64,000 nt of DNA from Neobacillus driksii (lineage in GTDB: Bacteria; Bacillota; Bacilli; Bacillales; Cytobacillaceae). The position numbers and the translations under genes are program-made. Shown piece after piece: positions 6,120-56,651 of this stretch (position 1 is its first letter; the number at the start of each line of letters is the position of its first letter). Below the pieces are notes generated by a model that saw only the letters and a list, made by a program, of their open reading frames with translations, ran no database searches and was not told where the DNA came from. Where the stretch lies: assembly GCF_013409995.1 (NCBI RefSeq), contig NZ_JACCBX010000017.1:62001-126000 (forward strand), given 5' to 3'.

Positions 6120-7139
6120 ATGCTAAAGGTTGCCGTGATTGGACTTGGAGATGTTTCGAGTGTTCATCTATCCGCAATAAAGGGAAATACGCGTGCAGAG
6201 TTGGTGGCAGTTTGTGATATCGATGAAACAAGGAAAGATATCGTGCCAGGTGTGAATTTTTATACTGATTTTCAAGAGATGCTGGAAAAAGAAGTGTTGG
6301 ATTGCGTACATATTTGTTTGCCGCACTATCTTCATTATCCCGTAACAAAAGCATGTGTTGAAAAGGGTGTGCACGTATTTCAAGAAAAGCCGCTATCATT
6401 GAATTCGGAAGAAGGATCTGACCTCGTCAAACTAGAGGAAAAGCATAAAGATAGTAAAATATGTGTTTGCTTCCAAAACCGTTTCAATGAAACCTTTGAA
6501 GTGCTGCAGAAAATAGTTGAAAGCGAACAATATGGAAAGGTGTTGGGTATCAAGGGGTTAGTGACATGGGCGAGACCCAAATCTTATTATGACAATAAAC
6601 CATGGCGGGGGAAATTGGAATTTGCAGGTGGTGGAGTGATGATCAACCAATCCATTCATACTTTGGATCAAATGCAGCTGCTTGGCGGCGAAATTAAATC
6701 CATTCGAGGGTCCGTCGATCAGCTTCTAGACTATGGGGTAGAAATCGAAGATACTGCCACAGCGTCTATTCAATTTGAAAATGGGGTGAAAGGATTCTTT
6801 TTTGCGACCATTGCCAATGCAAATAATTCCAGTGTCGAGCTTCAGGTTGTTTTTGAAAAACAGAAATTCACCATTAAGGATAGTATTCTAACGAAGCTGG
6901 ATGAAGAGGGTAAAAAAGTAGAAATGATCGAAGACAGCAAGATGCCAGGCTCAAAATTCTATTACGGTGCAAGTCATATGAAATTAATCAATAAATTCTA
7001 TGAGTGTATTGTAGAGAATACGGATGAGTACGTACACGTCAAAGATGCCCTTCCGTCAATGAAAATGATTGACAGTATTGTTAAATCATCTGAACAAAAA
7101 AGAGAAGTCAAGATGCAAAGTTTAGAAGCTAGCATATAA
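6120..7139 (+). CDS. Gfo/Idh/MocA-family oxidoreductase
   Basis: This is a predicted NAD(P)-dependent sugar or glycoside dehydrogenase/reductase of 339 residues. The N-terminal Rossmann domain has GLGDVS (residues 8-13) in place of the more usual GxGxxG spacing. The catalytic Lys is in the EKP motif (89-91), and the substrate domain carries GGGVMINQSIHTLD (170-183) with the conserved His. The start is ATG behind AAGGGAGTG. It follows the importer terminator, so it probably has its own promoter or depends on readthrough. Such enzymes typically oxidise or reduce a sugar ring carbon, often C3. Direction and substrate are unknown. Confidence 0.88.
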   Translation: MLKVAVIGLGDVSSVHLSAIKGNTRAELVAVCDIDETRKDIVPGVNFYTDFQEMLEKEVLDCVHICLPHYLHYPVTKACVEKGVHVFQEKPLSLNSEEGSDLVKLEEKHKDSKICVCFQNRFNETFEVLQKIVESEQYGKVLGIKGLVTWARPKSYYDNKPWRGKLEFAGGGVMINQSIHTLDQMQLLGGEIKSIRGSVDQLLDYGVEIEDTATASIQFENGVKGFFFATIANANNSSVELQVVFEKQKFTIKDSILTKLDEEGKKVEMIEDSKMPGSKFYYGASHMKLINKFYECIVENTDEYVHVKDALPSMKMIDSIVKSSEQKREVKMQSLEASI

Positions 7140-7241
7140 AACGAGGAAAGCGGAATAAACATACTGTTAGCGAAGAAATACTTGAGGAATGCTTACCCTA
7201 TATGATCTCAAATAGTAGTTTTTAAGTGAAAGGAGCAAATT

Positions 7242-8435
7242 ATGTCTATTGTTAATGTTGGAATTATTATGAACGGTGTTACCGGCCGTATGGGGACCAA
7301 TCAACATCTTATTCGATCCATTGTTGCCATTCGGGAACAGGGAGGAGTCGCTTGTAAAAACGGTGTTATCATTATGCCTGATCCCATTTTAGTAGGAAGA
7401 AATGAAGAAAAATTAAAAACATTAGCGAGTAAACACAATATTACTCGTTGGAGTACCAATTTAGATGAATGTCTTACCGATGAACAAAATATCATTTATT
7501 TTGATGCTCAAAAAACGGTTAGACGTGCTGAGGCGATTCGCAAGGCCATAAAGGCCGGGAAACATATTTATTGTGAAAAGCCAACAGCTGTAGGACTAGA
7601 AGAGTCTTTAGAACTTGCGACCTTAGCCTATAAAGCGGGAGTCAAAAATGGAGTAGTCCAGGATAAATTATTTCTCCCAGGGATTTTAAAGTTAAAAAGA
7701 TTAGTTGATTCTGGTTTCTTTGGTAAAATTCTCTCTGTCCGAATGGAATTTGGTTACTGGGTATTTGAAGGAGATTGGCAGCAAGCACAGCGTCCATCTT
7801 GGAACTATCGAAAAGAAGACGGCGGCGGCATAATTTCCGACATGTTTGCCCATTGGCGCTATGTCCTGGACAATCTATTTGGAAACGTCCGTGCTGTTTC
7901 TTGTATCGGTGCCACACATATCCAAAAGCGGGTGGATGAAAAAGATGAAATATATACAGCCACTGCAGAGGATGCAGCCTACGCTACATTCGAATTAGAT
8001 GGAGGGATTATCGTACAAGCAAATTCTTCTTGGGCAGTACGCGTAAACCGAGATGACCTTTTAACCATCCAAGTCGATGGAACGGAAGGCAGTGCAGTTG
8101 CGGGATTAAGAGATTGTAAGACACAGCATCGTGTTAACACGCCAAAGCCTGTTTGGAACCCGGATATAGCGAATCCAATCTCTTTCCTAGACCAATGGCA
8201 GGAGATGCCGACGAACGATATCTATGATAATGGCTTTAAGGTACAGTGGGAATTATTCCTGAAGCACATTGTTCTTGATGAAGAATTTCCATGGGATTTA
8301 TTAGAAGGTGCAAAAGGAACACAATTATCTGACCTTGGTCTTCAATCGTGGAAGGAAAGACGATGGGTGGATGTACCGGAACTGACCATTGGAGGGACAC
8401 TGAATGGTGAAAAAGTTAAAGCTGCTAAGAGCTAA
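7242..8435 (+). CDS. Gfo/Idh/MocA-family oxidoreductase of the DUF993-linked type
   Basis: This is a 397-residue predicted NAD(P)-dependent dehydrogenase. The nucleotide-binding loop NGVTGRMG (11-18) is unusual for the family, and the catalytic EKP motif (112-114) is intact. The C-terminal domain shows DGGGIISDMFAHWRYVLDNL, with His in the place where the family binds substrate. It is longer than the neighbouring relatives. The gene overlaps the start of the DUF993 gene by 32 bases and is followed by a TIM-barrel isomerase-like gene. From general knowledge this trio occurs together in other bacteria, so the three probably act in successive steps on one substrate. Confidence 0.85.
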   Translation: MSIVNVGIIMNGVTGRMGTNQHLIRSIVAIREQGGVACKNGVIIMPDPILVGRNEEKLKTLASKHNITRWSTNLDECLTDEQNIIYFDAQKTVRRAEAIRKAIKAGKHIYCEKPTAVGLEESLELATLAYKAGVKNGVVQDKLFLPGILKLKRLVDSGFFGKILSVRMEFGYWVFEGDWQQAQRPSWNYRKEDGGGIISDMFAHWRYVLDNLFGNVRAVSCIGATHIQKRVDEKDEIYTATAEDAAYATFELDGGIIVQANSSWAVRVNRDDLLTIQVDGTEGSAVAGLRDCKTQHRVNTPKPVWNPDIANPISFLDQWQEMPTNDIYDNGFKVQWELFLKHIVLDEEFPWDLLEGAKGTQLSDLGLQSWKERRWVDVPELTIGGTLNGEKVKAAKS

Positions 8436-9567
8436 TGGGTCTTTTGAATACTATGAACCGGGTAATACTGCTAGTTTTGAAATCCCTGCAAAGAAATTCC
8501 ATAGCAGGACTGCTTTTTCCGCTGCTCATGTTGTTTGTGACCCATTGGCTGTTGCATGTCCGTTAGGAAATCCCCAGATTCATTGGGAAGATACGTTATC
8601 TTATCGGCGTTATCTTTGGTCAATGGGTCTTTCGGTTGCGGAAGCCATGGATACCGCCCAAAGAGGTATGGGCCTTAGCTGGGATGGTGCGAAGGAATTA
8701 ATCAGACGTTCCAGTGTGGAAGCAAATGCAGTTGGCGGAAGGATAGCCTGTGGTGCAGGAACTGATCATTTGATACCCAATAATAAATACTCTATGGAAC
8801 AAATCATTGAAGCCTATGAAGAACAGTGTGCTTTTATCGAGGAGCAGGGTAGTCAAATTATTTTAATGGCAAGCCGGGCATTGGCGGCAAATGCGAAGGG
8901 CCCGGAGGATTATGCTCGCGTTTATAGACATATCCTGTCCCAAATTTCTCAACCTGTTATCTTACATTGGTTAGGTGATATGTTTGACCCATCCTTAACA
9001 GGGTACTGGGGACATAAAAATCTGGATGATGCAATGGAAGTTTGTTTAAACATCATTTGGGAAAATCAGGATAAGGTGGACGGGATTAAAATCTCTCTTC
9101 TGGATGCTGATAAGGAAATTGAGATGAGACAGCGATTACCAGAAACTGTCAAGATGTACACGGGCGATGATTTTAACTACCCTGAATTAATTCGAGGAGA
9201 TCATCACGGGTTTAGCCATGCCCTATTGGGTATTTTTGACGCAATCGCCCCGGCAGCCGCCGCAGCACTAAATGCCCTTGATCAGGATGACGTGAATACC
9301 TATGAGTCCATATTAGATAAAACAGTTCCATTATCTAGACATATTTTTCAAACTCCTACTTACTCGTATAAAACTGGAATTGTATTCATGGCATACTTGA
9401 ATGGTCATCAGAATCATTTTCGAATGATTAACGGTGCTGAGAGTGCCAGATCGATTGCACATTTATCAGAACTTTTTGTACTGGCTGATCAAGCTGGTTT
9501 ACTTAGGGAGCCAGATTTAGCTGCAGAAAGAATGAAGCTAGTCCTCAAACTGGCCGGGATCGAATAG
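8404..9567 (+). CDS. DUF993 family protein (predicted aldolase-like TIM barrel)
   Basis: The 387-residue protein matches what I know of DUF993, a family often labelled dihydrodipicolinate-synthase-like and of unknown reaction. Notable segments are AHVVCDPLAVACPLGNPQIH near the N-terminus, GRIACGAGTDHL, VILHWLGDMFDPSLTGYWG and VDGIKISLLDADKE, where the Lys would be the Schiff-base candidate if the class I aldolase analogy holds. The ATG lies seven bases after GGAGGG, inside the upstream gene, so the two are translationally coupled. The next gene starts nine bases after its stop. A role in cleaving or rearranging a keto sugar made by the upstream oxidoreductase is an inference. Confidence 0.8.
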   Translation: MVKKLKLLRANGSFEYYEPGNTASFEIPAKKFHSRTAFSAAHVVCDPLAVACPLGNPQIHWEDTLSYRRYLWSMGLSVAEAMDTAQRGMGLSWDGAKELIRRSSVEANAVGGRIACGAGTDHLIPNNKYSMEQIIEAYEEQCAFIEEQGSQIILMASRALAANAKGPEDYARVYRHILSQISQPVILHWLGDMFDPSLTGYWGHKNLDDAMEVCLNIIWENQDKVDGIKISLLDADKEIEMRQRLPETVKMYTGDDFNYPELIRGDHHGFSHALLGIFDAIAPAAAAALNALDQDDVNTYESILDKTVPLSRHIFQTPTYSYKTGIVFMAYLNGHQNHFRMINGAESARSIAHLSELFVLADQAGLLREPDLAAERMKLVLKLAGIE

Positions 9568-9576
9568 GAGGAGCAA

Positions 9577-10398
9577 ATGGAACAGTTAACAACCATTGAC
9601 CGATTAAGCTTAAATCAAATTACGACAGGTAACTGGAATCTACGTCAAGCCGTTGATGGCTGCGTCCGGCAGGAAATTCCTTGGATTGCCCTATGGCGGC
9701 ACAAAGTTGAGGAAATCGGCCTGGCAGACAGTAAGCGGTTGGTGAAAAATGCTGGACTTAAGGTATCAAGCCTTTGTCGAGGCGGTATGTTTCCGGCAGC
9801 AACAGAAAGTGAACGTCAAAAACGAATCGATGATAATAAGCGGGCGATTGAAGAAGCAGCTGAACTGGGGACGGATACCTTGGTACTTGTATGCGGACCT
9901 TCATCAGATAAGGATATTGCAACAGCAAGAAAAATGGTTGCAGACGGTATCGAGCAGATTGTCCCATTTGCTGCAGACTATGGGATTAAATTAGGAATTG
10001 AACCATTGCACCCGATGTATGCGGCAGAAAGATGTGTCATTGTTACCCTGAATGAAGCAAATACCATTGCCGAACAATATCAGCCTGAACAGGTTGGAGT
10101 AGTCGTGGATGTTTTCCATGTGTGGTGGGATCCTGATTTGTACAATCAAATTGCACGTGCAAAGGGACGGATTCTCGGGTTCCATATGTCTGACTGGATT
10201 GTACCGACACCCGATTTATTGATGGGGCGAGGGATGATGGGTGATGGGGTCATTGACATAAGAAAAATTAGATATGCCGTTGAGCAGACTGGCTATAAAG
10301 GTCCGATAGAAGTAGAGATTTTTAATGAAACGATTTGGAATCAGCCTGGAGATGAAGTATTAAGAGTAATGAAGTCCCGCTATTTAGAACATGTTTAA
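9577..10398 (+). CDS. Sugar phosphate isomerase/epimerase-like TIM-barrel protein
   Basis: This 273-residue AP-endonuclease-2/xylose-isomerase-like barrel probably binds a divalent metal. Candidate ligands are the Glu in GIEPLHPM, the Asp and His in VVDVFHVWW, the His in FHMSDW and the Glu in EVEIFN near the C-terminus. It is third in the tight oxidoreductase-DUF993-TIM unit, starting nine bases after the DUF993 stop with GGAGG as ribosome site. Relatives act as keto-sugar isomerases, epimerases, lyases or hydratases, and the exact step is not deducible. Confidence 0.85.
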   Translation: MEQLTTIDRLSLNQITTGNWNLRQAVDGCVRQEIPWIALWRHKVEEIGLADSKRLVKNAGLKVSSLCRGGMFPAATESERQKRIDDNKRAIEEAAELGTDTLVLVCGPSSDKDIATARKMVADGIEQIVPFAADYGIKLGIEPLHPMYAAERCVIVTLNEANTIAEQYQPEQVGVVVDVFHVWWDPDLYNQIARAKGRILGFHMSDWIVPTPDLLMGRGMMGDGVIDIRKIRYAVEQTGYKGPIEVEIFNETIWNQPGDEVLRVMKSRYLEHV

Positions 10399-10543: not shown

Positions 10544-11302
10544 ATGAGAAATAAGTTTGCAGCCCAATTGTATACGCTAAGAGAAGAATTAAAAAGAGGA
10601 ATTGTACCAGTTTTTAAAGAATTGAAGGAAATGGGCTGGGCCGGAGTTCAGTTGTCGGCGTTACCGCCTGGCTATGATCCAGAAGAAGTCGCAGCAGCTC
10701 TAAAGGAAAATCAACTGGGTACGGCCGGGATACATATATCCATTGACAGGCTGGAAAACGATCTTGATAATCTTCTAGATGAAGTCAGCTTATATCAAAC
10801 AAAAGATATTGTTTGTCCATTCCTTCCTGAGAATTTAAGAAACAGAGAAGGCTATCAAAAAGTAAAGACCTTCTTAAATGAAGTGGCTGAGAAAGCACCC
10901 GGATATCGGATTAGCTATCATAACCATGCTTTTGAATTTGACACTGAAATAGAAGGGAAATCTTCTTTAGAATACTTGTTAGAACCAACAGCAGAGAATA
11001 AAATTTTGGCGGAAATTGACGTGTTTTGGGTAAAAAAAGGCGGAAGAGACCCGCTGCAATTTCTACAAGCATATGCACAAAGAATGCCTATTATCCATTT
11101 AAAAGACATGACAAAGGATGAAAGAAAAACCTTTGCGGAAGTTGGAACAGGCTTGATTGATTTTGCTCCAATCCTAGATTGGTGTGAAAAATCAGGAGTT
11201 GAATGGTATGCAGTGGAACAAGATATCTGTCCTGGTAACCCAATGGATAGTCTTCAAACAAGCTTAGAAAACCTAAAAGTACTTGCAAAGCAATTTCAAT
11301 AA
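10544..11302 (+). CDS. Sugar phosphate isomerase/epimerase-like TIM-barrel protein
   Basis: This is a 252-residue xylose-isomerase-like barrel. Characteristic segments are QLYTLREELKRG at the start, ISYHNHAFEF in the middle, AEIDVFWVKKGG with acidic metal ligand, HLKDMTKDE, EVGTGLIDF and VEQDIC near the end. This pattern resembles the barrel proteins that hydrate or eliminate 3-keto sugars next to Gfo/Idh/MocA genes, an assignment based on memory of the family rather than a search. ATG follows AAAAGGAGC. It is followed after 54 bases by another oxidoreductase with which it may form a functional pair. Confidence 0.85.
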   Translation: MRNKFAAQLYTLREELKRGIVPVFKELKEMGWAGVQLSALPPGYDPEEVAAALKENQLGTAGIHISIDRLENDLDNLLDEVSLYQTKDIVCPFLPENLRNREGYQKVKTFLNEVAEKAPGYRISYHNHAFEFDTEIEGKSSLEYLLEPTAENKILAEIDVFWVKKGGRDPLQFLQAYAQRMPIIHLKDMTKDERKTFAEVGTGLIDFAPILDWCEKSGVEWYAVEQDICPGNPMDSLQTSLENLKVLAKQFQ

Positions 11303-11356: not shown

Positions 11357-12520
11357 TTGGAGAATGTCAAAATAGGAATTATCGGTATTGGCAATATGGG
11401 AAGTTCCCATTCACTCTATCTTAATAATGGTGAAGTACCAGGGGCAGTATTAACAGCCGTATGTGATCAGAACCCCGAGAGATTAAAATGGACAAAAGAA
11501 ACATTAGGTGAAAATATACAAATGTTTGACAATACCGAAGCATTTTTCGAATTCGGTGATATTGATGCGGTGATTGTAGCAACCCCGCATTATGATCATC
11601 CGCCTTTAGCGATAAAAGCCCTTCAAAAAGGTCTACATGTTTTGGTAGAAAAGCCGGTTGGTGTTTTTACCAAAAACGTTCGTGAATTGAATGAGGTGGC
11701 TAAAAAAAGTGGAAAAGTTTTTGGGATTATGTTTAACCAACGAACCAATCCTTTGTATCAAAAGCTAAGAGATCTTGTACAAAGCGGAGAATTAGGAGAA
11801 ATCAAACGAACAAATTGGATTATAACAGATTGGTATCGGTCTCAAAGCTATTATGATTCAGGCGGTTGGAGAGCAACATGGGCAGGTGAAGGCGGCGGGG
11901 TCCTCGCAAATCAAGACCCACACCAGCTTGATTTATGGCAATGGACGAGCGGATTGATGCCGAAACGAGTTCGGGCATTTTGTGGGTTTGGTAAGTTTCA
12001 TAATATTGAAGTAGAAGATGACGTAACGGCTTATGTTGAATACGAAAATGGTGCAACAGGTGTATTCGTTACTTCAACAGGTGATGCTCCTGGAACCAAT
12101 CGCTACGAAATATCCGGGGATCGTGGAAAATTGGTAGTCGAAGATGGAAAATTGACATTTTGGAGATTAAGACAATCCGAAAGGGAATTTAACAGAGAAT
12201 ATAAAGGTGGATTTGGAGAACCAGAATGCTGGAAAATTGATATCCCAATTAAAGGAGTAGCAACACAGCATAAAGGAATTACCACCAACTGGGTGAATGC
12301 GATTCTTCATGGCACAGAATTATTAGGGCCAGGCGTAGAAGGAATCAAAGGGCTAGAAATTTCGAATGCTATGCATTTATCTGCCTGGACAGACGATTGG
12401 GTAGACCTTCCCATAAATGAAGATCTCTTCTATTCAAAATTGCAAGAGAGAATCAAAACCTCTACATTCAAAAAGGAAATCGTTGCTGATCGAACACTTA
12501 ATATTCAAGGAACACATTAA
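11357..12520 (+). CDS. Gfo/Idh/MocA-family oxidoreductase
   Basis: This 387-residue NAD(P)-dependent dehydrogenase has a classic nucleotide loop GIGNMG (10-15), catalytic EKP (98-100) and a GGGVLANQDPHQLDLWQW active-site segment. The start is TTG, supported by AAGGAGAGGG just upstream; no ATG fits better. The PHQLDLWQW region, rich in aromatic residues, is typical of members acting on whole glycosides or anhydro sugars. A terminator follows 24 bases after the stop, so this gene ends a transcription unit that also holds the TIM-barrel gene before it. Confidence 0.88.
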   Translation: MENVKIGIIGIGNMGSSHSLYLNNGEVPGAVLTAVCDQNPERLKWTKETLGENIQMFDNTEAFFEFGDIDAVIVATPHYDHPPLAIKALQKGLHVLVEKPVGVFTKNVRELNEVAKKSGKVFGIMFNQRTNPLYQKLRDLVQSGELGEIKRTNWIITDWYRSQSYYDSGGWRATWAGEGGGVLANQDPHQLDLWQWTSGLMPKRVRAFCGFGKFHNIEVEDDVTAYVEYENGATGVFVTSTGDAPGTNRYEISGDRGKLVVEDGKLTFWRLRQSEREFNREYKGGFGEPECWKIDIPIKGVATQHKGITTNWVNAILHGTELLGPGVEGIKGLEISNAMHLSAWTDDWVDLPINEDLFYSKLQERIKTSTFKKEIVADRTLNIQGTH

Positions 12521-17065: not shown

Positions 17066-17176
17066 AAATAGATTACTAAATTAGATGTGTACAGGGATTG
17101 CGATGTGATCCTGACGTATAGATTTGTAAAAAAAGCTTAAGAACAATCAAGTCATTTAATGAATGGAGTTTTTACG

Positions 17177-33814: not shown

Positions 33815-33913
33815 TATTTTAAAGAATCTATGATTAACGAACTATTTCTCTGTTTGAAGGGATATTTTTAACATGGTATGTCCCTTAAAATAAAGGTCAA
33901 AGGAGGGTTATAC

Positions 33914-35194: not shown

Positions 35195-35201
35195 TCAAGA
35201 A

Positions 35202-35239: not shown

Positions 35240-35257
35240 TTACAGGGGTGAAAGACA

Positions 35258-35950: not shown

Positions 35951-35963
35951 AGGGGGTTGGAAG

Positions 35964-37725: not shown

Positions 37726-37750
37726 CAACTAAAAAAGGATGTGTCTATTT

Positions 37751-41216: not shown

Positions 41217-41293
41217 CACACTAATGGGGAAAATATCCTCCTAATTTTATAATTTTGGATATATTTTTCTAAAAAATGAACAGAGGGGGGGAA

Positions 41294-41998: not shown

Positions 41999-42064
41999 TT
42001 GGGTACGAGGTAAGAATACAACTTTGGTGATACCATACGAACAAATATAAAAGGGGTGTATGAA

Positions 42065-42928: not shown

Positions 42929-43098
42929 CTGAAATATATATTTTGTGAAATTTAAAAGCTAACAAACTATTATAATATCAACATGTTTCTACCTCAACCA
43001 CTATTCCTCTCTTGTACATTCACCTTTGATAGCATTTTATTCTCAGTAATAGATTGAGAATTTTGGATTATTTTAAAACATTTAAAGGAGGAGAAAGG

Positions 43099-44385: not shown

Positions 44386-44588
44386 GAGGTAGTAAATTAG
44401 ATCCTTATAATTGGGTGGAGGCAGATAAAACCATTCCATCCTAATTATAAGGACTAATGTTTGAAATTGCTTTATCGATAAGAGCCTGTCCATTCATTGA
44501 GTAAAATAATTCACCTAAGAACGTTTTAACACTATTGGTTCCAGCAGTATATTTTTATCGTTTCTCAGCAATTGGTAGGAGGAGGACT

Positions 44589-45509: not shown

Positions 45510-45511
45510 AT

Positions 45512-48001: not shown

Positions 48002-48024
48002 TCAACTTATTGGAGGGGGGTTCA

Positions 48025-48780
48025 TTGCCAGTAAATGAGTATAAAAAATTAATAAGTAAGCAGCTTAAGGAGCTCGGGGTAGCGAAAGGGGATGTCATCT
48101 TCGTTCATTCCTCGTTAAGCTCGTTTGGATATGTCCCGGGTGGAGAACGAACGATTATCGAGAGTCTGTATCAAGCCGTTGGAGAAACCGGAACGCTGCT
48201 TTTTCCAAGCCTTTCATATGAAATTGTTACACCTGAAAACCCTTATTTTGATGTAGTACGAACGCCATCCAATGTAGGGAAAATTCCTGAATATTTTCGG
48301 AAGCATATCGCAGTAAAGCGTAGTCTAAACCCCACGCATTCTGTCAGCGGTATGGGGAAATTGGTAAAAGAACTGTTATCGGATCATTCCTTGGATGAAA
48401 CTCCATGTGGTGAGCATTCGCCCTATCGAAAACTCCCGGAACGAAATGGGAAAATATTATTTCTAGGTTGTGGCATAGAACCGAATACATCCATGCATGC
48501 GATTGAAGAATTGGTAAATCCTCCTTATTTATTTGGTAACTTTTATACGTACAAAGTGATAGATGAACATAGAAGAACGCACATGTTAAAGTGCAGAAGA
48601 CATGATTTTAATGGATGGAAGCAGAGATATGACCGTATTGAAGCGATATTAGAAGAAAAACAACTTCATAGTGGAAAAGTCCTGAAAGCTAACGCACATT
48701 TAATAGAGGCTAAACCCCTTTGGGATAGAGCACTTAATATCTTAAAAAAGGATCCTTTCTATTTTGTTGAACGGGTGTGA
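48025..48780 (+). CDS. AAC(3)-family N-acetyltransferase-like protein
   Basis: This 251-residue protein of the aminoglycoside 3-N-acetyltransferase/YokD fold family would transfer an acetyl group from acetyl-CoA to an amine. Family segments are DVIFVHSSLSSFGYVPGG near residues 23-40, PTHSVSGMG (His), and GEHSPYRKL. TTG at 48025 is chosen because GGAGGGGGG lies just before it and the TTG at 48010 overlaps that site. In a locus with NanE and ROK kinase it more likely acetylates an amino sugar than an antibiotic. It could also be a transacylase working with the cytosolic DUF4127 protein just upstream. Confidence 0.82.
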   Translation: MPVNEYKKLISKQLKELGVAKGDVIFVHSSLSSFGYVPGGERTIIESLYQAVGETGTLLFPSLSYEIVTPENPYFDVVRTPSNVGKIPEYFRKHIAVKRSLNPTHSVSGMGKLVKELLSDHSLDETPCGEHSPYRKLPERNGKILFLGCGIEPNTSMHAIEELVNPPYLFGNFYTYKVIDEHRRTHMLKCRRHDFNGWKQRYDRIEAILEEKQLHSGKVLKANAHLIEAKPLWDRALNILKKDPFYFVERV

Positions 48781-48824: not shown

Positions 48825-49898
48825 ATGGGCAAAGTAAAAGTAGGGATTATTGGTGCAGGTACCATAGCCGAATATGGCCATCTGCCTTATTATCAGGAAA
48901 ATGAAGATGTTGAAATCACTGCGATTGTTGATATGAATTTAGAGAGAGCACATAAAATGGCAGTTAAATTTAATGTTGCGAATATCTATAGCGATGCGGA
49001 GGAAATGTTCAAAAGCTCGGATATTGACGCGGTCAGTATCTGTACTTCCAATCATGCACATATTCCTTTAGCCAAATTAGCCATTCGTAACGGTGTTGAT
49101 GTTTTAGTAGAAAAGCCAATAGGGACATCTTATCAGGATTCCCTAGAATTAGTTCGACTTGCTGAAACCCATAATAGAATTTGTATGGTGGGTATGACTC
49201 ATCGTTTCAGAAACGATTCTCAAGCGTTAAAGGAATTTGTTGAAGCCAATAGTCTTGGTGAAATCTATTATACAAAAGTGAAAATTCTCAGTAGAAGAGG
49301 TACTCCTACAGGTTGGTTTACTGATCATTCCAAGTCAGGTGGCGGTCCGCTAATGGATATTGGTGTACACGCCCTAGATTTGGCCTGGTGGATTCTTGGA
49401 AAGCCTGAACCTGAACGAATTTCAGGATTTTTAAAGAACGGAATCGGTAGTTTTGCTACAAAAATGACCTCACGCTGGCAATCTTCAAGTAATTATAACG
49501 ATAATAATGAAGTGTTTGATGTAGAAGATTTTGCAGCCGCCTTTATTCGTTTTAAATCAGGTATGGTTATGAACCTAGAAGTAAGCTGGGCTTTAAATGG
49601 CGCTAAAGATGATGCCATATGTGTAGATATTTATGGAACCAAAGGTGGCCTTTCTTTAGAACCACTTCGATTTTATACAGAAATCAATCAATTTTTCACT
49701 GAATCTAAACTTGATATTATAAAAAATGATCAAATGAAAGAAGAAATCAATCACTTTGTACATTGTGTCCATAATAGAACGAAGCCGCTGATTCCAGCTG
49801 ATGAAGGTGCTGAAGTTCTAAGAATGTTAGAAGCAATAGCCGAATCATCCAGGATTAATAAAGAAGTCTTACTTGAAACTTTCTATCAAAAAAAATAA
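48825..49898 (+). CDS. Gfo/Idh/MocA-family oxidoreductase
   Basis: This 357-residue NAD(P)-dependent dehydrogenase/reductase has GAGTIAEYG in the nucleotide loop (10-18), the catalytic VEKPIG, and the active-site segment GGGPLMDIGVHALDLAWW. ATG follows AAGGAGTG. It is similar over the whole length to the enzyme at 55575 (same GWF-D---SGGGPL-D-GVH--DL-W pattern), so locus C holds a pair of paralogues that may oxidise and reduce different positions or act at two ends of one pathway. Confidence 0.87.
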   Translation: MGKVKVGIIGAGTIAEYGHLPYYQENEDVEITAIVDMNLERAHKMAVKFNVANIYSDAEEMFKSSDIDAVSICTSNHAHIPLAKLAIRNGVDVLVEKPIGTSYQDSLELVRLAETHNRICMVGMTHRFRNDSQALKEFVEANSLGEIYYTKVKILSRRGTPTGWFTDHSKSGGGPLMDIGVHALDLAWWILGKPEPERISGFLKNGIGSFATKMTSRWQSSSNYNDNNEVFDVEDFAAAFIRFKSGMVMNLEVSWALNGAKDDAICVDIYGTKGGLSLEPLRFYTEINQFFTESKLDIIKNDQMKEEINHFVHCVHNRTKPLIPADEGAEVLRMLEAIAESSRINKEVLLETFYQKK

Positions 49899-50014
49899 TA
49901 ATACTGATTCCTACTGCTCCTATATTAAGTTAAGGGATGTTTTTAGTTAGGTGCAGTAACATACATATTCTTTTATCTTTCGTACCGAAGATAAAGCGAG
50001 AGTAGGTGATACTG

Positions 50015-50995
50015 ATGGAAGAAGCGAAATATTCAATCGGTGTTGATATTGGAGGAACAAAGATTTCTTTTGGGATTGTTAGTCATGATGGAAAGATACT
50101 AGAAAAAGCGACCTATTCAACCCCTCAGGAAACACGTGAATCCATTATTGACTTAATGAAAGAGAAGATAACCATTTTTCTGGAAAGAGCCAAGTTGCTT
50201 AAAATTCAAATTGTCGGTATTGGAATTGGAACGGCAGGACAAATCGATTTTGAAAAGGGAAGAGTACTTTCGGGAACAACCAATATTAAGGATTGGAATG
50301 ACGTCCCACTAAGGGATATCTTCACAAAAAAATTTGATTTGCCTGTCTGGGTAGACAATGATGTAAATGCCTTAACCCTTGCAGAACAACAACTTGGTGT
50401 AGGAAAAAACGTCAAGGATTTAATTTGTCTTGCCTTAGGAACCGGGGTTGGAGGGGGCGTTATATCCGGTGGGAATATGATTCGTGGCGCTTGGGGCGGT
50501 GCTGCTGAACTGGGACATATTACAGTAGATATGAATGGTCCTGTCTGTAATTGTGGATTAAATGGCTGTTTAGAAGTCTACTCATCTGGAACTGGGATAG
50601 CAAATAGGATGCGTGAAAAATTGAAAGAATATCATCCAGTTCAAGATAGCAAACTCTCTTACTATCAAGGACATCTTGATCAAGTCACAAGTAAAGTTGT
50701 TTTTGATTTAATGAATGAAGGTAATCATCTTGCAATCGAAGTGGTAGAGAAAGCGTTAGAAGCTTTTGCCTATGCGATTGTTAGTATTATTCATACTTTT
50801 AATCCTTCATTAATCATTTTAGCCGGTGGAGTCCTTAATGATGGGAATTGGTTTATTAAAAGAGTGAAAGATAAGGTTGGGGGGCTTGGAATGCAGTCAC
50901 TTGTATCCCCAGTCGAGTTCAAAATGGCAGAACTTGGTCCGGATGCCGGACTAATTGGTGCAGCCCTGCAGCCATGGGTGTATGATGAGGTCTAA
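50015..50995 (+). CDS. ROK-family sugar kinase, candidate N-acetylmannosamine kinase
   Basis: This 326-residue ATP-dependent kinase has the phosphate loop DIGGTK (11-16), a WVDNDVNAL catalytic Asp segment (near 115), LALGTGVGGGV, the LGH His168 and the zinc site CNCGLNGCLE (Cys178, 180, 185), which together define ROK kinases. The start ATG at 50015 is behind AGGTGAT. There is no N-terminal HTH, so it is an enzyme and not a repressor. Together with nanE it could make and use ManNAc 6-phosphate (NanK role), but ROK kinases for glucose or GlcNAc look the same, so the substrate is an inference. Confidence 0.87.
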   Translation: MEEAKYSIGVDIGGTKISFGIVSHDGKILEKATYSTPQETRESIIDLMKEKITIFLERAKLLKIQIVGIGIGTAGQIDFEKGRVLSGTTNIKDWNDVPLRDIFTKKFDLPVWVDNDVNALTLAEQQLGVGKNVKDLICLALGTGVGGGVISGGNMIRGAWGGAAELGHITVDMNGPVCNCGLNGCLEVYSSGTGIANRMREKLKEYHPVQDSKLSYYQGHLDQVTSKVVFDLMNEGNHLAIEVVEKALEAFAYAIVSIIHTFNPSLIILAGGVLNDGNWFIKRVKDKVGGLGMQSLVSPVEFKMAELGPDAGLIGAALQPWVYDEV

Positions 50996-51089
50996 ATGTA
51001 AATAATGCAAGCCTTAGGACTGTTTTTAAAACGAGAAGTTCTTACTAATAATGTCGTCCGAACTGTCTCTGATTTCGAAGGGAGAAAAA

Positions 51090-51947
51090 ATGAATATACT
51101 TAAACAATCAAGCCCACTGGTGTTAATTTCAAGTATGTATAAATCATTAACAAAAGCCGAACAAAAGGTAGCTGATTTAGTTACAAGAGATACACATGAT
51201 GCCGTTTATTCATCCGTAACAGATCTTGCTGAAAAGGCCAATGTGGGTGAAACAACGGTCATTCGCTTTTGCCGGAAACTTGGCTATCGTGGATTTCAAG
51301 ATTTTAAATTAGCTGTAGCGCAAAATTTAGTGAGTCCATCTGAACAAGTTCACGGAAAAATTGAGGATGGAGATAGTTTAGCTGTTGTATCTAAAAAAAT
51401 TACTTCTCAAATTATTGATTCACTTGATAATACCCTTAACCTGTTACAGCCTTCTAGTGTTGAGAAAGTAGTAGATAGGATTACAACAGCCAGAAAACTA
51501 TATTTTTTTGGCGTTGGTTCATCTGGCATTTTAGCAAAAGACGCAAAACATCGATTTATGCGCTTAGGATATCATGTTGAGCAATCATCAGATACACATA
51601 TTATGGCGATGAATGCCGCACTTGCTACGAATGAAGATATTGTATTTGGGATTTCTACATCTGGCAGCACAAAGGATGTAGTGGATACCATGCGAATTGC
51701 AAAGGAAAATCATGCATTTATTGTCTGTCTTACCAGTCATTCCAAATCACCGATTACGCAATATGCAGATGTAATTTTATTAGCAGCTTCGAAGGAGACA
51801 CCACTGCAAGGAGGCTCATTTTCCTCTAAAATTGCCCAATTACAATTATTGGATATTTTAACAACAGCGGTTGCCCTTAAAAGAAAAGACTATACGTTTA
51901 AATCAATTGAAAAAACAGCAAAAGCAGTTTTAGATAAGATGTATTAA
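51090..51947 (+). CDS. MurR/RpiR-family transcriptional regulator
   Basis: This 285-residue DNA-binding regulator has an N-terminal HTH_6 domain (about residues 1-75; AEKANVGETTVIRFCRKLGY) and a SIS sugar-phosphate-binding domain (about 120-250; FFGVGSSGILAKDAKHR, GISTSGSTKDVVDTM). ATG 51090 follows GAAGGGAG; the earlier in-frame start has no site. Such proteins sense sugar or amino-sugar phosphates, for example GlcNAc-type or MurNAc phosphates. It is the likely controller of locus C, perhaps through the palindrome at 41030. Confidence 0.9.
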   Translation: MNILKQSSPLVLISSMYKSLTKAEQKVADLVTRDTHDAVYSSVTDLAEKANVGETTVIRFCRKLGYRGFQDFKLAVAQNLVSPSEQVHGKIEDGDSLAVVSKKITSQIIDSLDNTLNLLQPSSVEKVVDRITTARKLYFFGVGSSGILAKDAKHRFMRLGYHVEQSSDTHIMAMNAALATNEDIVFGISTSGSTKDVVDTMRIAKENHAFIVCLTSHSKSPITQYADVILLAASKETPLQGGSFSSKIAQLQLLDILTTAVALKRKDYTFKSIEKTAKAVLDKMY

Positions 51948-51983: not shown

Positions 51984-52814
51984 ATGAAAAAAGGCGTAAA
52001 CCATTGGTGTTTCCCTGAAACATGGAGTTTTGAGAGAGTAATAGAAACAACAGCTAAGGCGCATTTTGATGGTATCGAATTGAATATGGCTGAATCCGGT
52101 ATGTTTTCGTTAACAAGTTCGGACGCTGAACTCATTACTATTAGGGATAAAGTGAGAAATGCAAATCTCGAGATCCCAAGTCTCTCCACAAGTCTTTTAT
52201 GGAAATATAGTTTGACAAGTAATAATAAGAAGGAACGGGAAAAGGGAAAATCAATTGTTCAAAAAATGATTGATGCTGCGGCGTTGCTTCAAATCAAAAC
52301 CATCTTAGTTGTTCCAGGTGTTGTAAACCAGGATGTATCATATGATGCAGCCTACTCACGGGCTCTGGAAGCCCTTGGCGAATTAAGTGCCTATGCAGAA
52401 GAGGCTAAGGTTGAAATTGGCGTTGAAAATGTTTGGAATAAATTTCTATTAAGTCCAATCGAAATGAAGAATTTTATTCATGAAATAGGTTCTGAAGCGG
52501 TTGGTGTATATTTTGATGTAGGAAATGTCCTGAATTATGGATATCCGGAACAGTGGATTTCTATCTTAAATGGACATATAAAAAAAGTTCATGTAAAAGA
52601 TTTTATAACTGCAGCTGGAAACCATTCGGGGTTTACTTCCTTACTGCAGGGTGATGTGAATTGGAAGAATGTTATAGAAGCATTAAAGAATATTGGATAT
52701 GAGGATTATTTAACAGCAGAGATTCCACCACATCTACATTTTCCTGAAAAGTTGCTAAACGATATATCAGATTCTATCAATTTTATGATCAAGGAGGGAT
52801 GGACATCATGTTGA
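51984..52814 (+). CDS. Sugar phosphate isomerase/epimerase-like TIM-barrel protein
   Basis: This is a 276-residue xylose-isomerase-like barrel. Recognisable parts are NHWCFPETWSFERV at the start, GIELNMAESG, IGVENVWNKFL (Glu), VYFDVGNVLNYG (Asp), KVHVKDF (His) and TAEIPPHLHF (Glu). ATG follows AGAGAGG. Its end overlaps the start of the next oxidoreductase by seven bases, so the two enzymes are coupled, as in other barrel-Gfo pairs of the window. Confidence 0.85.
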   Translation: MKKGVNHWCFPETWSFERVIETTAKAHFDGIELNMAESGMFSLTSSDAELITIRDKVRNANLEIPSLSTSLLWKYSLTSNNKKEREKGKSIVQKMIDAAALLQIKTILVVPGVVNQDVSYDAAYSRALEALGELSAYAEEAKVEIGVENVWNKFLLSPIEMKNFIHEIGSEAVGVYFDVGNVLNYGYPEQWISILNGHIKKVHVKDFITAAGNHSGFTSLLQGDVNWKNVIEALKNIGYEDYLTAEIPPHLHFPEKLLNDISDSINFMIKEGWTSC

Positions 52815-53806
52815 AGGTGGCAGTAATAGGAGCAGGAACAATGGGCTCGGCACACTCAGAGGCGTACGTGAACATGAGTGATACAGTACTGGTTGGGATT
52901 GTCGATATAAGGGAAGATGTTGGAAGAAACCTAGCTGAGAGTCAAAGGACTAACTATTATAAGAGCTTTGAAGATTTAATAGCTTCTGAGAGTCCGGATC
53001 TTATAGATGTCTGCGTCCCGACATCTCTACATCGAGAGTATGTAGAAAAGGCAGCAAAGTCAAAAAAACATGTCATCTGTGAAAAACCCCTTGCCAGAAA
53101 CTTAGAAGATGCACGTGCGATGATTAAGATTTGTAAGGAAGAAGGTGTGAAGCTTTTTGTTGCCCAGGTGGTTCGCTTTTTTCCTGACTACCAAAAAATT
53201 TATCGTTTAGTTGCTGAACAAAAGTTAGGCAAAATTGGGACCGTTCGAACAATGAGAGGCGGCGTTTTTCCAACAGCCTGGGATGATTGGTATGCGAATG
53301 TTGAGAAAAGCGGTACATTAATTGTCGATATGATTATTCATGATTTTGACTTTTTAAGATGGTGCTTTGGTGATGTCGAAAGAGTGTTTGCTAAAAGCCA
53401 TTTAGGGCGTGATTTTAATCGAATCGACCATACATTTGTTAGCTTGCGTTTTAAAAATGGTGTGATTGCTCATGTCGAAGGGTCCTGGGCATACCCAAGC
53501 GGTTTTAAGACGGAAATTGAAATTGCCGGTTCAAATGGAGTTTTAATCCATAATAGCGAAGATGCTGTTCCCATTAGGTCCACTTTAAGGGAAAACAGTT
53601 TACATATATCTGGTGTTGCTGTACCGGAAAGTCCCTTGAAGACAGGCCCCTATCAAGTAGAACTTGAACATTTTGTGAGCTGTATTATAAACGGGACGGA
53701 TCCAATAGTGACGGCAGAAGATGGTTTTAAAGCGCTTGAAATTAGTCTAGCAGCTTTAGAATCTGTAAAAACCGGCAAGGTTGTAGCGTTAAAGGAGGTT
53801 GATTAA
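52808..53806 (+). CDS. Gfo/Idh/MocA-family oxidoreductase
   Basis: The protein has 332 residues from ATG 52808, chosen because AAGGAGGG lies nine bases upstream and touches the alternative ATG at 52799. The nucleotide loop is GAGTMG, and the catalytic EKP is intact (CEKPLARN). The substrate domain carries GTLIVDMIIHDFDFLRWC, a pattern seen in myo-inositol-dehydrogenase-like members (Asp and His in D-x-x-x-HD-D). It ends in an overlap-coupled arrangement with the next oxidoreductase (GTG start one base after its stop). Confidence 0.87.
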   Translation: MLKVAVIGAGTMGSAHSEAYVNMSDTVLVGIVDIREDVGRNLAESQRTNYYKSFEDLIASESPDLIDVCVPTSLHREYVEKAAKSKKHVICEKPLARNLEDARAMIKICKEEGVKLFVAQVVRFFPDYQKIYRLVAEQKLGKIGTVRTMRGGVFPTAWDDWYANVEKSGTLIVDMIIHDFDFLRWCFGDVERVFAKSHLGRDFNRIDHTFVSLRFKNGVIAHVEGSWAYPSGFKTEIEIAGSNGVLIHNSEDAVPIRSTLRENSLHISGVAVPESPLKTGPYQVELEHFVSCIINGTDPIVTAEDGFKALEISLAALESVKTGKVVALKEVD

Positions 53807-53807
53807 T

Positions 53808-54791
53808 GTGAAGGTAGGAATCCTTAGCTTTGCCCATATGCATGCCTATAGCTACGCCGAAGCATTAAACGAAATCAGCGGAGTTGAATTATTTGGCATA
53901 GCAGATGAAAATGAAGAACGCGGTAAAAACGCGGCAAACCAATATAAAACTAACTATTTTCATGACTATCACGATTTATTAAAAGAAGACATTGATGCTG
54001 TTATTATTTGCAGTGAAAATAGTAGGCATAAAGAGATGACTATTGCAGCCGCAAAAGCGGGAAAACATATTCTTTGTGAAAAACCACTTGCTACCTCTGT
54101 CGAAGATGCACAGTCCATGATTGAAACATGTAAAAAGTATGGTGTAAAACTGCAGACCGCATTTCCTGTTCGTTTTAATCCACCTGTCCAACGTGTCAAG
54201 CAAATGATAGACAATGGCGAGTTAGGAAGAATTGTTGCGATCCGCGGAACAAACCGAGGCCAAAATCCGGGAGGATGGTTTATCGAAGAAGAGCTGTCAG
54301 GTGGCGGTGCGGTTCTTGACCATACAGTACATGTGGTTGATTTAATGCGCTGGTTTATGAATAGCGAAGTGAAAGAGGTATATGCAGAAGTGGACACTGT
54401 CTTTAACGATATCCAAATCGATGATTGCGGATTGTTAATGCTTGAATTTGAAAATGGTGTTTTTGCTTCCCACGATCCAAGTTGGTCCAGATGTAAAACC
54501 TTCCCGACCTGGGGGGATGTGACCATGGAGATAGTGGGAACCAACGGGGTTGTCCACTTGGATGCATTTAATCAGCATTTTATGGTCTATAATGATGCAG
54601 ACCATAAGGTCAATCAGGAATTTTGGGGTAATTCTTATGATTTAGGGTTAGTTGAGGATTTTATACATTGCCTAAAAGAAGACAGAGAGCCGTCAATCAC
54701 TGGCTTTGATGGCCTAAAGGCTATGGAAGTTGCGATAAAGGCCTATGAATCAGCTAAAATGAAAAAACCAATCCGAATAAGGAATGAATGA
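53808..54791 (+). CDS. Gfo/Idh/MocA-family oxidoreductase
   Basis: The protein has 327 residues from GTG 53808, with AAAGGAGG nine bases upstream; the TTG at 53799 abuts the ribosome site. The nucleotide-binding start is unusual (GILSFAHMHAYSY instead of GxGxxG), as in the locus A protein at 17177. EKP is intact (CEKPLATS), and GGGAVLDHTVHVVDLMRW forms the active site. It is directly coupled to the enzyme before it, so two dehydrogenases or a dehydrogenase/reductase pair are made in fixed ratio. Confidence 0.87.
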   Translation: MKVGILSFAHMHAYSYAEALNEISGVELFGIADENEERGKNAANQYKTNYFHDYHDLLKEDIDAVIICSENSRHKEMTIAAAKAGKHILCEKPLATSVEDAQSMIETCKKYGVKLQTAFPVRFNPPVQRVKQMIDNGELGRIVAIRGTNRGQNPGGWFIEEELSGGGAVLDHTVHVVDLMRWFMNSEVKEVYAEVDTVFNDIQIDDCGLLMLEFENGVFASHDPSWSRCKTFPTWGDVTMEIVGTNGVVHLDAFNQHFMVYNDADHKVNQEFWGNSYDLGLVEDFIHCLKEDREPSITGFDGLKAMEVAIKAYESAKMKKPIRIRNE

Positions 54792-54899
54792 AAGGAATGT
54801 GATGTAAAACAATGTGATGCCAGAGACTGACTCTAAATTGGGATTATTCTCTCCAAACGCGCAGCATTAACAATGATAGGAAAAGGAGGGGAATCTAGA

Positions 54900-55511
54900 A
54901 TGTTATCTTATGATGGAGCGATAATGCGAGCCTTATCGTCAATGGGAAATTATTGTTTATTAAATCTGCTATGGATTATTTTTTCACTCCCAGTAATAAC
55001 GGTATTTCCAGCAACTGTTGCCATGTTCGGCATTCTGAAAGAGTGGAAAAATGGGTCTGAACCACCTATGTTAAGCACATTCTTTTCTATCTTTAAAAAA
55101 AATATACTAAAAAGCAGCTTTATCGGCGTTATTCAAATAGTATGCAGCATTATTTTTATCGTTGATTTTCAAATTATTTGGAATATGGAAGGTAACTTAA
55201 AATTAATCCTTTTTCCCGTTTTAATGCTATTGGGATTCATTTTCATATCCACGTCACTTTATCTCTATCCAATAATGGCCAAATATGATATGCCACTTAA
55301 ACTACTTGTTAAAAAGGCATTCTTCCTGTCAGCAGCAAGACCTTTTTCACCACTTATGATGATCGTGATTTTTGTCATTATGATTTTCATATGTACAATT
55401 GCCCGATTTTTACCTTTTGTATGTGCATTTAGCATATGTGGGGTAATTAATTACCGATTGGTTTCGAGCACCATCGAAAAGGCAAATAAGATTGCTTTAA
55501 AGGCTAAATAA
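54900..55511 (+). CDS. DUF624 (YesL-like) membrane protein
   Basis: This 203-residue integral membrane protein has about five predicted helices and the N-terminal motif NLLWIIFSLPVITVFPAT, typical of DUF624. ATG 54900 follows AAAGGAGGGG; the earlier in-frame ATG overlaps no site. These proteins sit in many oligosaccharide loci of Bacilli beside ABC importers and may help their assembly or regulation, but the biochemical role is unknown. The gene lies in the middle of the oxidoreductase genes of locus C. Confidence 0.85.
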   Translation: MLSYDGAIMRALSSMGNYCLLNLLWIIFSLPVITVFPATVAMFGILKEWKNGSEPPMLSTFFSIFKKNILKSSFIGVIQIVCSIIFIVDFQIIWNMEGNLKLILFPVLMLLGFIFISTSLYLYPIMAKYDMPLKLLVKKAFFLSAARPFSPLMMIVIFVIMIFICTIARFLPFVCAFSICGVINYRLVSSTIEKANKIALKAK

Positions 55512-55574
55512 CATTAAAAAATTCGGAATGTTGTGATTTGATTTACAGATACCATTTAAAAGGAGAGGTTTATT

Positions 55575-56651
55575 ATGACAAAATTAAATATTGGAGTCAT
55601 CGGGGCAGGATCCATATCAGCTTTACATTTGCAGTCGTATGAAAAGAATCAACGTGCAAATCTTTATGCCGTTTGTGATTTAAACGAACAGAGAGCAGAA
55701 ACAAAAGCTCAAACCTATAGTATTCAAAAGGTTTATACAGATTATCATGAACTGCTAGCCGATCCGCTTGTTGATGCAGTGAGTATTTGTACATGGAACA
55801 ATTCGCATGCAGAAATTGCCATTGCAGCAATGGAGGCAGGAAAGCATGTCCTAGTAGAAAAGCCATTATGTAAAACAGTGGAGGAGGCGCTCAAGGTTCA
55901 GGAGGCAGTTAAACGCTCAGGTAAGCTTCTCCAGGTTGGATTTGTCCGAAGATATGCCACGAATACGAAAATCGTAAAACAGTTTATGGATGCTGGAGAT
56001 ATCGGAGAAATATACTATGCGAAAGCTTCCTGCTTAAGGCGGTTAGGAAACCCGGGCGGCTGGTTTGCTGACAATGAGCGATCTGGTGGGGGACCGTTGA
56101 TTGACCTGGGTGTTCATGTCATTGATCTTTGCTGGTATTTAATGGGGAAACCAAAAGTGAAATCAGTAAGTGGGAACACTTATTCAAAATTAGGAAATCG
56201 CTCCAATATCAATCATCTATCTTTTTATCAAGCTTCGGATTATGATCCAAATCATAACTCGGTGGAAGATCTTGCGAATGCCATCATTCGATTTGACAAT
56301 GGTGCTTCGATCATGGTGGATGTTAGCTTCACTCTCCATGCAAAAGAAGATGAGATTTCTGTAAAACTATATGGAGATAAAGGTGGAGTTGAAATTGAAC
56401 CAGAGCTTTTCTTGGTTTCAGAAAAGCACAATACCATTTTAAATATTACTCCACAGGTAGATAATTTGAAGTTTGATTTTGTCCAAGGATTTCAAAATGA
56501 AATCGACCATTTTGTCTTAAGTTGTTTTGGTGAAAAACCTACACTAAGTCCTGTTGAAGACGGTGTTGAGATAATGAAAATTTTAAATGCAGTATATGAA
56601 TCAGCGGAAAAAGGTATTGAAATTACATTTGAACAAGAAGTGGAAGTTTAA
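55575..56651 (+). CDS. Gfo/Idh/MocA-family oxidoreductase
   Basis: This is a 358-residue dehydrogenase with GAGSIS in the nucleotide loop, the catalytic VEKPLC, and GGGPLIDLGVHVIDLCWY as active-site segment. It is the paralogue of the locus C enzyme at 48825, and an acidic C-terminal helix closes the protein. ATG follows AAAAGGAGAGG. It probably acts in the same amino-sugar pathway, followed by the MFS carrier gene after a weak hairpin. Confidence 0.87.
   Translation: MTKLNIGVIGAGSISALHLQSYEKNQRANLYAVCDLNEQRAETKAQTYSIQKVYTDYHELLADPLVDAVSICTWNNSHAEIAIAAMEAGKHVLVEKPLCKTVEEALKVQEAVKRSGKLLQVGFVRRYATNTKIVKQFMDAGDIGEIYYAKASCLRRLGNPGGWFADNERSGGGPLIDLGVHVIDLCWYLMGKPKVKSVSGNTYSKLGNRSNINHLSFYQASDYDPNHNSVEDLANAIIRFDNGASIMVDVSFTLHAKEDEISVKLYGDKGGVEIEPELFLVSEKHNTILNITPQVDNLKFDFVQGFQNEIDHFVLSCFGEKPTLSPVEDGVEIMKILNAVYESAEKGIEITFEQEVEV

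Follow-up and report, generated by a model that had tools for sequence, protein, structure and literature searches.

Three sugar-breakdown loci in Neobacillus driksii: a relative of a 3-keto-glycoside beta-eliminase and an uncharacterised family, DUF4127, linked to NanE

AtOGE (8BVK) is a proven 3-keto-O-glycoside beta-eliminase of Agrobacterium, in which the metal is held by H132, D163 and H189, and weakly by E233, with H134 as the catalytic residue; the C-glycoside eliminases treated in the same source carry Glu at the first ligand and retain the catalytic His (PMC10628242). In the levoglucosan pathway (LgdA/B1/B2/C), two dehydrogenases and two barrels are encoded beside ATP-binding cassette (ABC) importer genes (PMC7676230). 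We analysed a stretch of 64,000 nucleotides from Neobacillus driksii (contig NZ_JACCBX010000017.1, positions 62,001 to 126,000; hereafter the window), in which Gfo/Idh/MocA oxidoreductases (Gfo1 to Gfo8), xylose-isomerase-like barrels (AP1 to AP6) and sugar importers fall into three separate sugar-breakdown loci: locus 1 (1486-18274), locus 2 (31294-40764) and locus 3 (41276-57886). The best explanation of the whole, which we advance tentatively and with somewhat less than even confidence, is that locus 1 would run an oxidation-elimination-aldol route and loci 2 and 3 would run routes for N-acetylhexosamine glycans.

The case for locus 1 centres on AP2, whose best solved relative in a ranking of Protein Data Bank (PDB) entries was AtOGE (E 2.8e-26, 96 bits), ahead of 8tcs, 8tcd/8tcr and 8tct at 8e-15 to 7e-12. 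Residues H126, H128, D159, H185 and E225 of AP2 align with H132, H134, D163, H189 and E233 of AtOGE, all five being kept, and the AP2 relatives of two other loci (L049, 83% identity; L055, 36%) keep the same active site. The likeness, which is observed directly, comprises the barrel family, the four metal ligands, the catalytic His and an adjoining Gfo dehydrogenase; the differences are a Gln in AP2 at the position of AtOGE Glu39, which is a ligand only in the shifted metal site of AtOGE, and the presence in the AP2 locus of DUF993, a 2-hydroxyacid dehydrogenase and an orphan 615-aa protein (TOR). A sequence-only reading of this DNA had proposed oxidation-first glycoside breakdown for its loci at large; judged by AP2, with its five residues and its neighbour Gfo3, such cleavage is supported for locus 1, but the proposal does not carry over to the whole stretch.

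The five remaining barrels (AP1, AP3, AP4, AP5 and AP6) have Glu instead of His at the first ligand in a MAFFT alignment, and the AtOGE-type metal site was found in none of them. A His two residues past this ligand is present in AP3 (ETH) and AP5 (ENH) and absent from AP1, AP4 and AP6; the motifs of AP3 and AP5 are consistent with C-glycoside eliminases. In AP5, which matched Art22 (8z1i) in the PDB at E 1.4e-20, the residues E149-N150-H151, D178, H204 and E259 are invariant across nine aligned sequences. AP1 matched 7vpf (E 5.6e-138) and 3ju2 (SMc04130; E 9.5e-80), and the closest NCBIfam model to AP4 was 5-keto-L-gluconate epimerase, at 92.6 of 300 bits and far below the cut-off. Among the paper titles listed in a literature search on the PDB ids 8tcd, 8tcs, 8tcr and 7vpf, none was relevant.

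The division into three loci follows from the gene inventory. Pfam was run, with a significance limit of E<=0.001, on 50 of the 52 open reading frames (ORFs) of at least 150 aa, two antisense ORFs (4578-5045 and 53969-54544) being left out. It recovered eight Gfo/Idh/MocA proteins (6120, 7242, 11357, 17159, 48825, 52799, 53799 and 55575), six AP_endonuc_2 barrels (9577, 10544, 14452, 15283, 42056 and 51984) and three sets of a substrate-binding protein (SBP) with two permeases (2697/3668/4564, 33878/35964/36889 and 43054/44535/45512), exactly the counts of the sequence-only reading, although the first importer set lies ahead of position 6120, where that reading had begun. Its remark that no glycosidase could be recognised was likewise borne out by these hidden Markov models, as no glycoside hydrolase (GH) or polysaccharide lyase family was matched, and the coupling in pairs that it described is seen in the overlaps of AP6 with Gfo6 (16 bp) and of Gfo6 with Gfo7 (8 bp) and in the 12-bp gap between AP3 and AP4. 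The whole 6.5 Mb genome contains 46 PF01408 and 36 PF01261 matches, with further clusters of both gene types on other contigs; chance would place ~0.36 and ~0.28 of them in 50.5 kb, where eight and six were observed, a density ~20x the genome average. Because the intervening genes at 18.4-31 kb to which Pfam gave a name (a NERD/UvrD helicase, a PRD regulator, a phosphotransferase system (PTS) EIIC protein and a transketolase) bear no relation to the loci, the stretch is three loci and not one, and a single oxidation-first system across 50 kb was ruled out. In neighbour maps of other genomes the three parts recur separately.

None of the eight Gfo proteins reached the 650-bit cut-off for levoglucosan dehydrogenase (NF052479; best 146, for 55575), and against the BT_2158 and BT_2159 glycoside and disaccharide 3-dehydrogenases (cut-offs 750 and 650 bits) the best scores were 73 and 78, again for 55575. 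The resemblance to the levoglucosan pathway is one of gene make-up, and it stops at the dehydrogenase cut-off. As to NAD-dependent glycosidases of the Gfo type (GH109 and kin), no Pfam glycosidase model gave a match, the coverage of GH109, GH177, GH179 and GH188 by Pfam being uncertain.

Beside AP2, locus 1 holds a conserved module of Gfo2, DUF993 and AP1. DUF993 occurs in 20 of 199 genomes of the order, the window's own counted, and we examined 18 loci, from 18 of the 19 other genomes that have it (G449 was left out). The three genes stand together in 17 of these 18; relatives of Gfo4 lie beside the module in six of the 18, a 2-hydroxyacid dehydrogenase in three, and AP2 only in L049. The PDB relative of DUF993, 4dnh (E 5.9e-138), is solved but uncharacterised. 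In a profile comparison with DHDPS (hhalign probability 90.9, E 1.2e-6), the Schiff-base Lys falls on the invariant K229. The class I aldolases of the DHDPS/NAL type use a catalytic Tyr; DUF993 shares their profile and the aligned lysine but is longer and has an invariant His188 where this Tyr stands. The name DUF993 appears in none of the 5.39 million papers searched. The occurrence of DUF993 together with a 2-hydroxyacid dehydrogenase in locus 1 suggests that the sugar chain is cleaved and that free glucose is not re-formed.

L049 keeps the part of locus 1 that begins with the second permease and ends with the 2-hydroxyacid dehydrogenase at 65-90% identity (SBP1 82%, second permease 90%), and no Gfo4 was found there within the 20 kb fetched. 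In the proposed route, the importer would take up a glycoside or a small oligosaccharide. The sugar would then be oxidised to a keto-glycoside by one of the Gfo/Idh/MocA dehydrogenases, probably Gfo3, and AP2 would break the glycosidic bond by metal-dependent beta-elimination; the Gfo2-AP1-DUF993 module and the 2-hydroxyacid dehydrogenase would then take the keto-sugar through isomerisation to aldol cleavage. If so, locus 1 would add a Bacillaceae locus to those known for oxidation-first glycoside cleavage, one in which the sugar is probably split by the unstudied DUF993 and not returned to glucose.

Two observations weigh against this route: none of the Gfo proteins is a proven glycoside dehydrogenase, and the sole NCBIfam match of AP2 is the IolE-type myo-inosose dehydratase (47.6 of 290 bits), a resemblance given which AP2 could dehydrate a keto-polyol instead. 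In a rival account, in our judgement somewhat unlikely, locus 1 breaks down a cyclic polyol or sugar acid of the inositol kind and leaves the glycosidic bond uncut; the Gfo proteins would be polyol dehydrogenases, AP2 an IolE-like dehydratase, AP1, AP3 and AP4 isomerases or epimerases, and DUF993 an aldolase. Of the four Gfo proteins in locus 1, two (6120 and 11357) had inositol dehydrogenase as their best-scoring NCBIfam model, as did 52799 and 55575 in locus 3; the first-ligand Glu of the five other barrels, the absence of a glycosidase and the lack of AP2 from 16 of the 17 loci with a Gfo2-DUF993-AP1 module would fit as well. All of these NCBIfam scores, however, fall far short of the curated cut-offs, and the top PDB match of AP2 is AtOGE, whereas no IolE entry appeared at E<=0.001. 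The locus 1 importer is also of the SBP_bac_1 type, which is common for oligosaccharides.

For loci 2 and 3 the evidence comes from the neighbourhoods of DUF4127, which is encoded once in each locus (D4127a in locus 2, D4127b in locus 3). A scan with a 31-sequence alignment confirmed at least 559 DUF4127 loci, and the neighbours of the best 80 were identified by tblastn. NanE was present in 52 of the 80, and in 38 of the 54 whose 10-kb flanks were complete; ROK kinases were found in 42 of the 80, RpiR regulators in 36, ABC permeases in 51, Gfo8-like proteins in 16 and AP5-like proteins in 11, and an AP2-like protein in none. Among 45 DUF4127-NanE ORF pairs, which comprise the NanE genes kept by the ORF caller, 40 were on the same strand and 16 lay within 100 bp, overlaps counted. 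The linkage was also apparent at the level of whole genomes: among 347 other genomes of the phylum (the window's own, G000, was left out, as were G290, with DUF4127 below the cut-off, and NanE matches of <90 bits), DUF4127 occurred in 51, with both genes in 23, NanE only in 14, DUF4127 only in 28 and neither in 282, giving an odds ratio of 16.5 and p 7e-13, a value of the kind that shared ancestry inflates. The 23 genomes with both span 13 families, and in eight of them the two genes lie within 10 kb. From these associations, loci 2 and 3 look like loci for N-acetylhexosamine glycans, perhaps containing N-acetylmannosamine (ManNAc).

The related loci also carry classical enzymes. Hexosaminidases of GH84 or GH20C were found in 18 of the 80, a count that rises to 20 on adding GH31 and to 27 on adding the glycosidase-like GHL10. 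Clustering of neighbouring ORFs, with Pfam run on one representative per cluster, gave as recurrent neighbours GH20C (11 loci), GHL10 (10 and 8), GDSL esterase (8), GH84 (7), a putative esterase (6) and GH31 (5); GH38 (two loci) and acetylxylan-esterase genes occurred in individual DUF4127 loci outside the best 80. The lack of a glycosidase is therefore local to this stretch, as relatives of its loci do carry classical ones. A mutual exclusion of FAD and Gfo oxidoreductases was considered and rejected (30 and 18 of the 80 loci, both in four; Fisher p 0.17).

These data also bear on the claim of several oxidation-first glycoside routes spread over the whole stretch, which we regard as distinctly unlikely. 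In its favour are the kinship of AP2 to AtOGE, the His two residues past Glu in AP3 and AP5, as described for C-glycoside eliminases (PMC10628242), and a DUF4127 locus of the same genus (L055) in which an AP2-like protein sharing the active-site motif of AP2 lies near Gfo6-like and Gfo7-like dehydrogenases. On the other side, only one barrel of six has the OGE-type site, the five others having Glu as first ligand, no Gfo protein reaches the dehydrogenase cut-offs, the AP2-like protein of L055 has no counterpart in the 80 best DUF4127 loci, and 18 of these carry classical hexosaminidases. The gene content of the loci points the same way, locus 3 being of amino-sugar type (NanE, ROK, RpiR and DUF4127) and locus 2 forming a DUF4127 operon of its own.

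With NanE, a ROK kinase and an RpiR-type regulator, locus 3 resembles nan catabolism (NanA-NanK-NanE); it differs in the absence of NanA, in the presence of DUF4127 and in the hexosaminidases of its relatives. It could accordingly be read as a locus for sialic acid or anhydro-sialic acid, with NanA encoded elsewhere and a Gfo protein like YjhC, itself a member of that family; this we consider very improbable. NanE, ROK and RpiR are common to nan operons, which RpiR-type NanR regulates (PMC12713135), and YjhC acts on dehydrated sialic acids (PMC7315737). Set against this, PF00701 (NanA/DapA) was near DUF4127 in 0 of 12 genomes, the nearest on a shared contig being ~82 kb away (G307), and the single PF00701 gene of four of these genomes (G024, G027, G268 and G307) is presumably DapA. 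No PF00701 match was found on the window's contig or in the scanned ORFs, and a nan-like locus exists apart in the same genome, where a second NanE on contig C1 is separated by ~0.5 kb from a PF00701 gene and also has a Gfo gene nearby (C1:163382-166556), a probable sialic acid locus. Because PF00701 lies away from DUF4127 and this other NanE stands beside PF00701, a role of the locus 3 NanE in sialic acid use is improbable.

DUF4127, unstudied and tied to NanE with no NanA nearby, is the more novel object of the stretch. An alignment-based AlphaFold2 model of D4127b was of high confidence (pLDDT 94.3, pTM 0.93), and Foldseek found no convincing PDB fold match for it (best E 1.7e-4; TM <=0.33 among the 50 matches listed). 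The weak matches include many barrels (xylose isomerase, GH20C, chitinase), and the strand-helix order, in which conserved residues follow many of the strands, would be in keeping with a divergent barrel that carries insertions. The members of the alignment are 25-57% identical to D4127b, and of its 25 invariant columns 16 are polar or charged. By a simple hydropathy rule, D4127a and all five of the orthologues examined have a signal-peptide-like segment; D4127b lacks one, as do all 80 DUF4127 ORFs whose N-terminal motif could be read (one more was unreadable). A glycan-degrading enzyme would account for such secreted and cytosolic forms better than a sugar-phosphate enzyme would, and DUF4127 is a candidate new glycan-cleaving enzyme. 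The name DUF4127 appears in none of the 5.39 million papers searched, nor does the string "N-acetylmannosaminidase", other spellings of which were not searched. As to its occurrence in viruses, two partial matches were seen in unannotated fecal phage records, and the predicted structure of a viral protein of 693 aa (BFVD A0A346TNQ6) matches the DUF4127 model (E 1.5e-33).

Under the explanation favoured here, the secreted DUF4127 of locus 2 and the cytosolic DUF4127 of locus 3 would free or process a unit whose final form is ManNAc. This would be phosphorylated by the ROK kinase, and NanE would convert ManNAc-6-P to GlcNAc-6-P, with the RpiR regulator in control. Here, as in locus 1, we infer the substrates, the order of the reactions and the glycan cleavage by DUF4127 from sequence and gene context. 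A more specific proposal, which we hold to be unlikely as it stands, is that DUF4127 founds a new glycan-cleaving family, secreted and cytosolic, that frees ManNAc from glycans such as Gram-positive wall polymers into a NanA-free ROK-NanE route. A ManNAc-releasing enzyme, if real, would fill a gap, because ManNAc is a known component of these polymers (PMC6030368). In a bolder variant, Gfo or FAD oxidoreductases would replace hexosaminidases, and oxidation, elimination and hydration of an N-acetylhexosamine glycoside would rebuild carbon 2 as ManNAc, so that NanE would be needed. In either form, loci 2 and 3 offer a testable setting for an uncharacterised Pfam family.

Several results run counter to the amino-sugar glycan assignment. 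In profile comparisons, kinship of DUF4127 to GH84, GH20C, AP_endonuc_2 (the AP5 barrels) and DHDPS was rejected at hhalign probabilities of 0.1, 0.3, 0.2 and 1.6. NanE is absent from 28 of the 80 loci, seven of these having GH84, GH20C or GH31, as well as from locus 2 and from the 20-kb maps of its five relatives, and 15 of the 23 genomes with both genes have no NanE within 10 kb of DUF4127, the two lying on different contigs or, in G337 and G357, at least partly far apart on one contig. The choice of the best 80 loci favours one DUF4127 subfamily, and related genomes are not independent; some loci moreover coincide between this set and the others (for example L054 = L079 and L065 = L096), so the sets are not independent either. 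For the ROK protein of locus 3, the top-scoring model is ROK glucokinase (240 of 260 bits), and the protein lies below the cut-offs for a NanK equivalog (128 of 450 bits) and for N-acetylmannosamine kinase (148 of 283).

In an alternative that we take seriously while giving it well under even weight, DUF4127 would cleave no bond and would accompany amino-sugar loci as an accessory protein (an epimerase, a de-acylase or a helper in transport). The missing kinship to the glycosidases compared (GH84 and GH20C) and the recurrence of esterases and acetyltransferases in DUF4127 loci would agree with it, but the invariant columns, mostly polar or charged, and the split into secreted and cytosolic forms resemble a substrate-degrading enzyme. 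One such acetyltransferase gene (48010-48780) lies inside locus 3, and a 49% identical one is found beside DUF4127 in L145; genes of this kind occur in two of the 80 loci. The score of the locus 3 protein is far below the AAC(3) cut-offs, and it may act on amino sugars rather than drugs.

The features of the three loci are listed in Table 1.

Table 1. Genes and gene groups of the three loci (window coordinates)
Feature	Position	Strand	Basis
AraC-type regulator	1486..2376	+	Pfam
ABC sugar importer 1: permeases 2697, 3668 and SBP1 4564	2697..5934	+	Pfam
Gfo1, Gfo/Idh/MocA oxidoreductase	6120..7139	+	Pfam
Gfo2, part of conserved three-gene module with DUF993 and AP1	7242..8435	+	Pfam, neighbour maps
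DUF993, aldolase-like (DHDPS/NAL-type) barrel	8404..9567	+	Pfam, 4dnh, hhalign
AP1, xylose-isomerase-like barrel, metal site E/D/H/E	9577..10398	+	Pfam, PDB matches, MAFFT
AP2, relative of 3-keto-glycoside beta-eliminase AtOGE	10544..11302	+	8BVK match, residues
Gfo3, adjoins AP2; candidate glycoside dehydrogenase	11357..12520	+	Pfam, adjacency
TOR, orphan, 615 aa	12601..14448	+	No Pfam, NCBIfam or credible PDB match
AP3, barrel, E-x-H at first metal ligand	14452..15270	+	Pfam, MAFFT
AP4, barrel	15283..16053	+	Pfam, NCBIfam
D-2-hydroxyacid dehydrogenase	16082..17065	+	Pfam; 74% identical in L049
Gfo4	17159..18274	+	Pfam
Two-component sensor/regulator (histidine kinase, response regulator), locus 2	31294..33814	+	Pfam; kept in L056, L058-L061
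Locus 2 importer (SBP2, permeases 35964, 36889) and orphan P230 (35258-35950)	33878..37725	+	Pfam
FAD_oxidored (PF12831) protein	37739..39091	+	Pfam; relative in 30/80 DUF4127 loci
D4127a, DUF4127 with N-terminal signal-peptide-like segment	39115..40764	+	Pfam, hydropathy rule
NanE, ManNAc-6-P 2-epimerase	41276..41998	+	Pfam; NCBIfam PRK01130 305.7 bits, cut-off 189
AP5, barrel	42056..42928	+	Pfam, nine-sequence alignment
Locus 3 importer (SBP3 and two permeases)	43054..46402	+	Pfam
D4127b, DUF4127 without signal peptide	46448..48001	+	Pfam, AlphaFold2 model
Antibiotic_NAT-fold acetyltransferase	48010..48780	+	Pfam; AAC_3 115 of 270 bits
Gfo5	48825..49898	+	Pfam
ROK sugar kinase (50006) and RpiR/SIS regulator (51051)	50006..51947	+	Pfam
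AP6, Gfo6, Gfo7, overlapping trio	51984..54791	+	Pfam, ORF coordinates
DUF624/MusI-like membrane protein, Gfo8, MFS-like transporter	54873..57886	+	Pfam; Gfo8 71% identical in L054

Locus 2 is found again, as an operon of eight genes, in L056, L058, L059, L060 and L061, and parts of locus 3 recur in L054 and L055. The orphan P230 (230 aa) of the locus 2 operon is 67-80% identical across five genomes and has no Pfam match at the limit used; a NanE-like epimerase was tried as its identity and rejected (hhalign probability 2.1). TOR of locus 1 has a full-length relative in one, and a weak partial match in one more, of 298 other genomes of the order. Helices followed by strands were seen only in a poor single-sequence model of TOR (pLDDT 33.6, unusable), and its assignment as a recognisable toroid lyase was rejected, the best Pfam E being 0.072 (limit 10) and the lone PDB match having E 1.7. 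Between locus 1 and the NERD/UvrD helicase gene, positions 18414-22265 hold short ORFs and a 321-aa ORF with no Pfam match. Further on, at 27631-28903, an EIIC-GAT match is spread over the overlapping ORFs 27631-28161 and 28112-28903, and the PTS permease gene looks interrupted.

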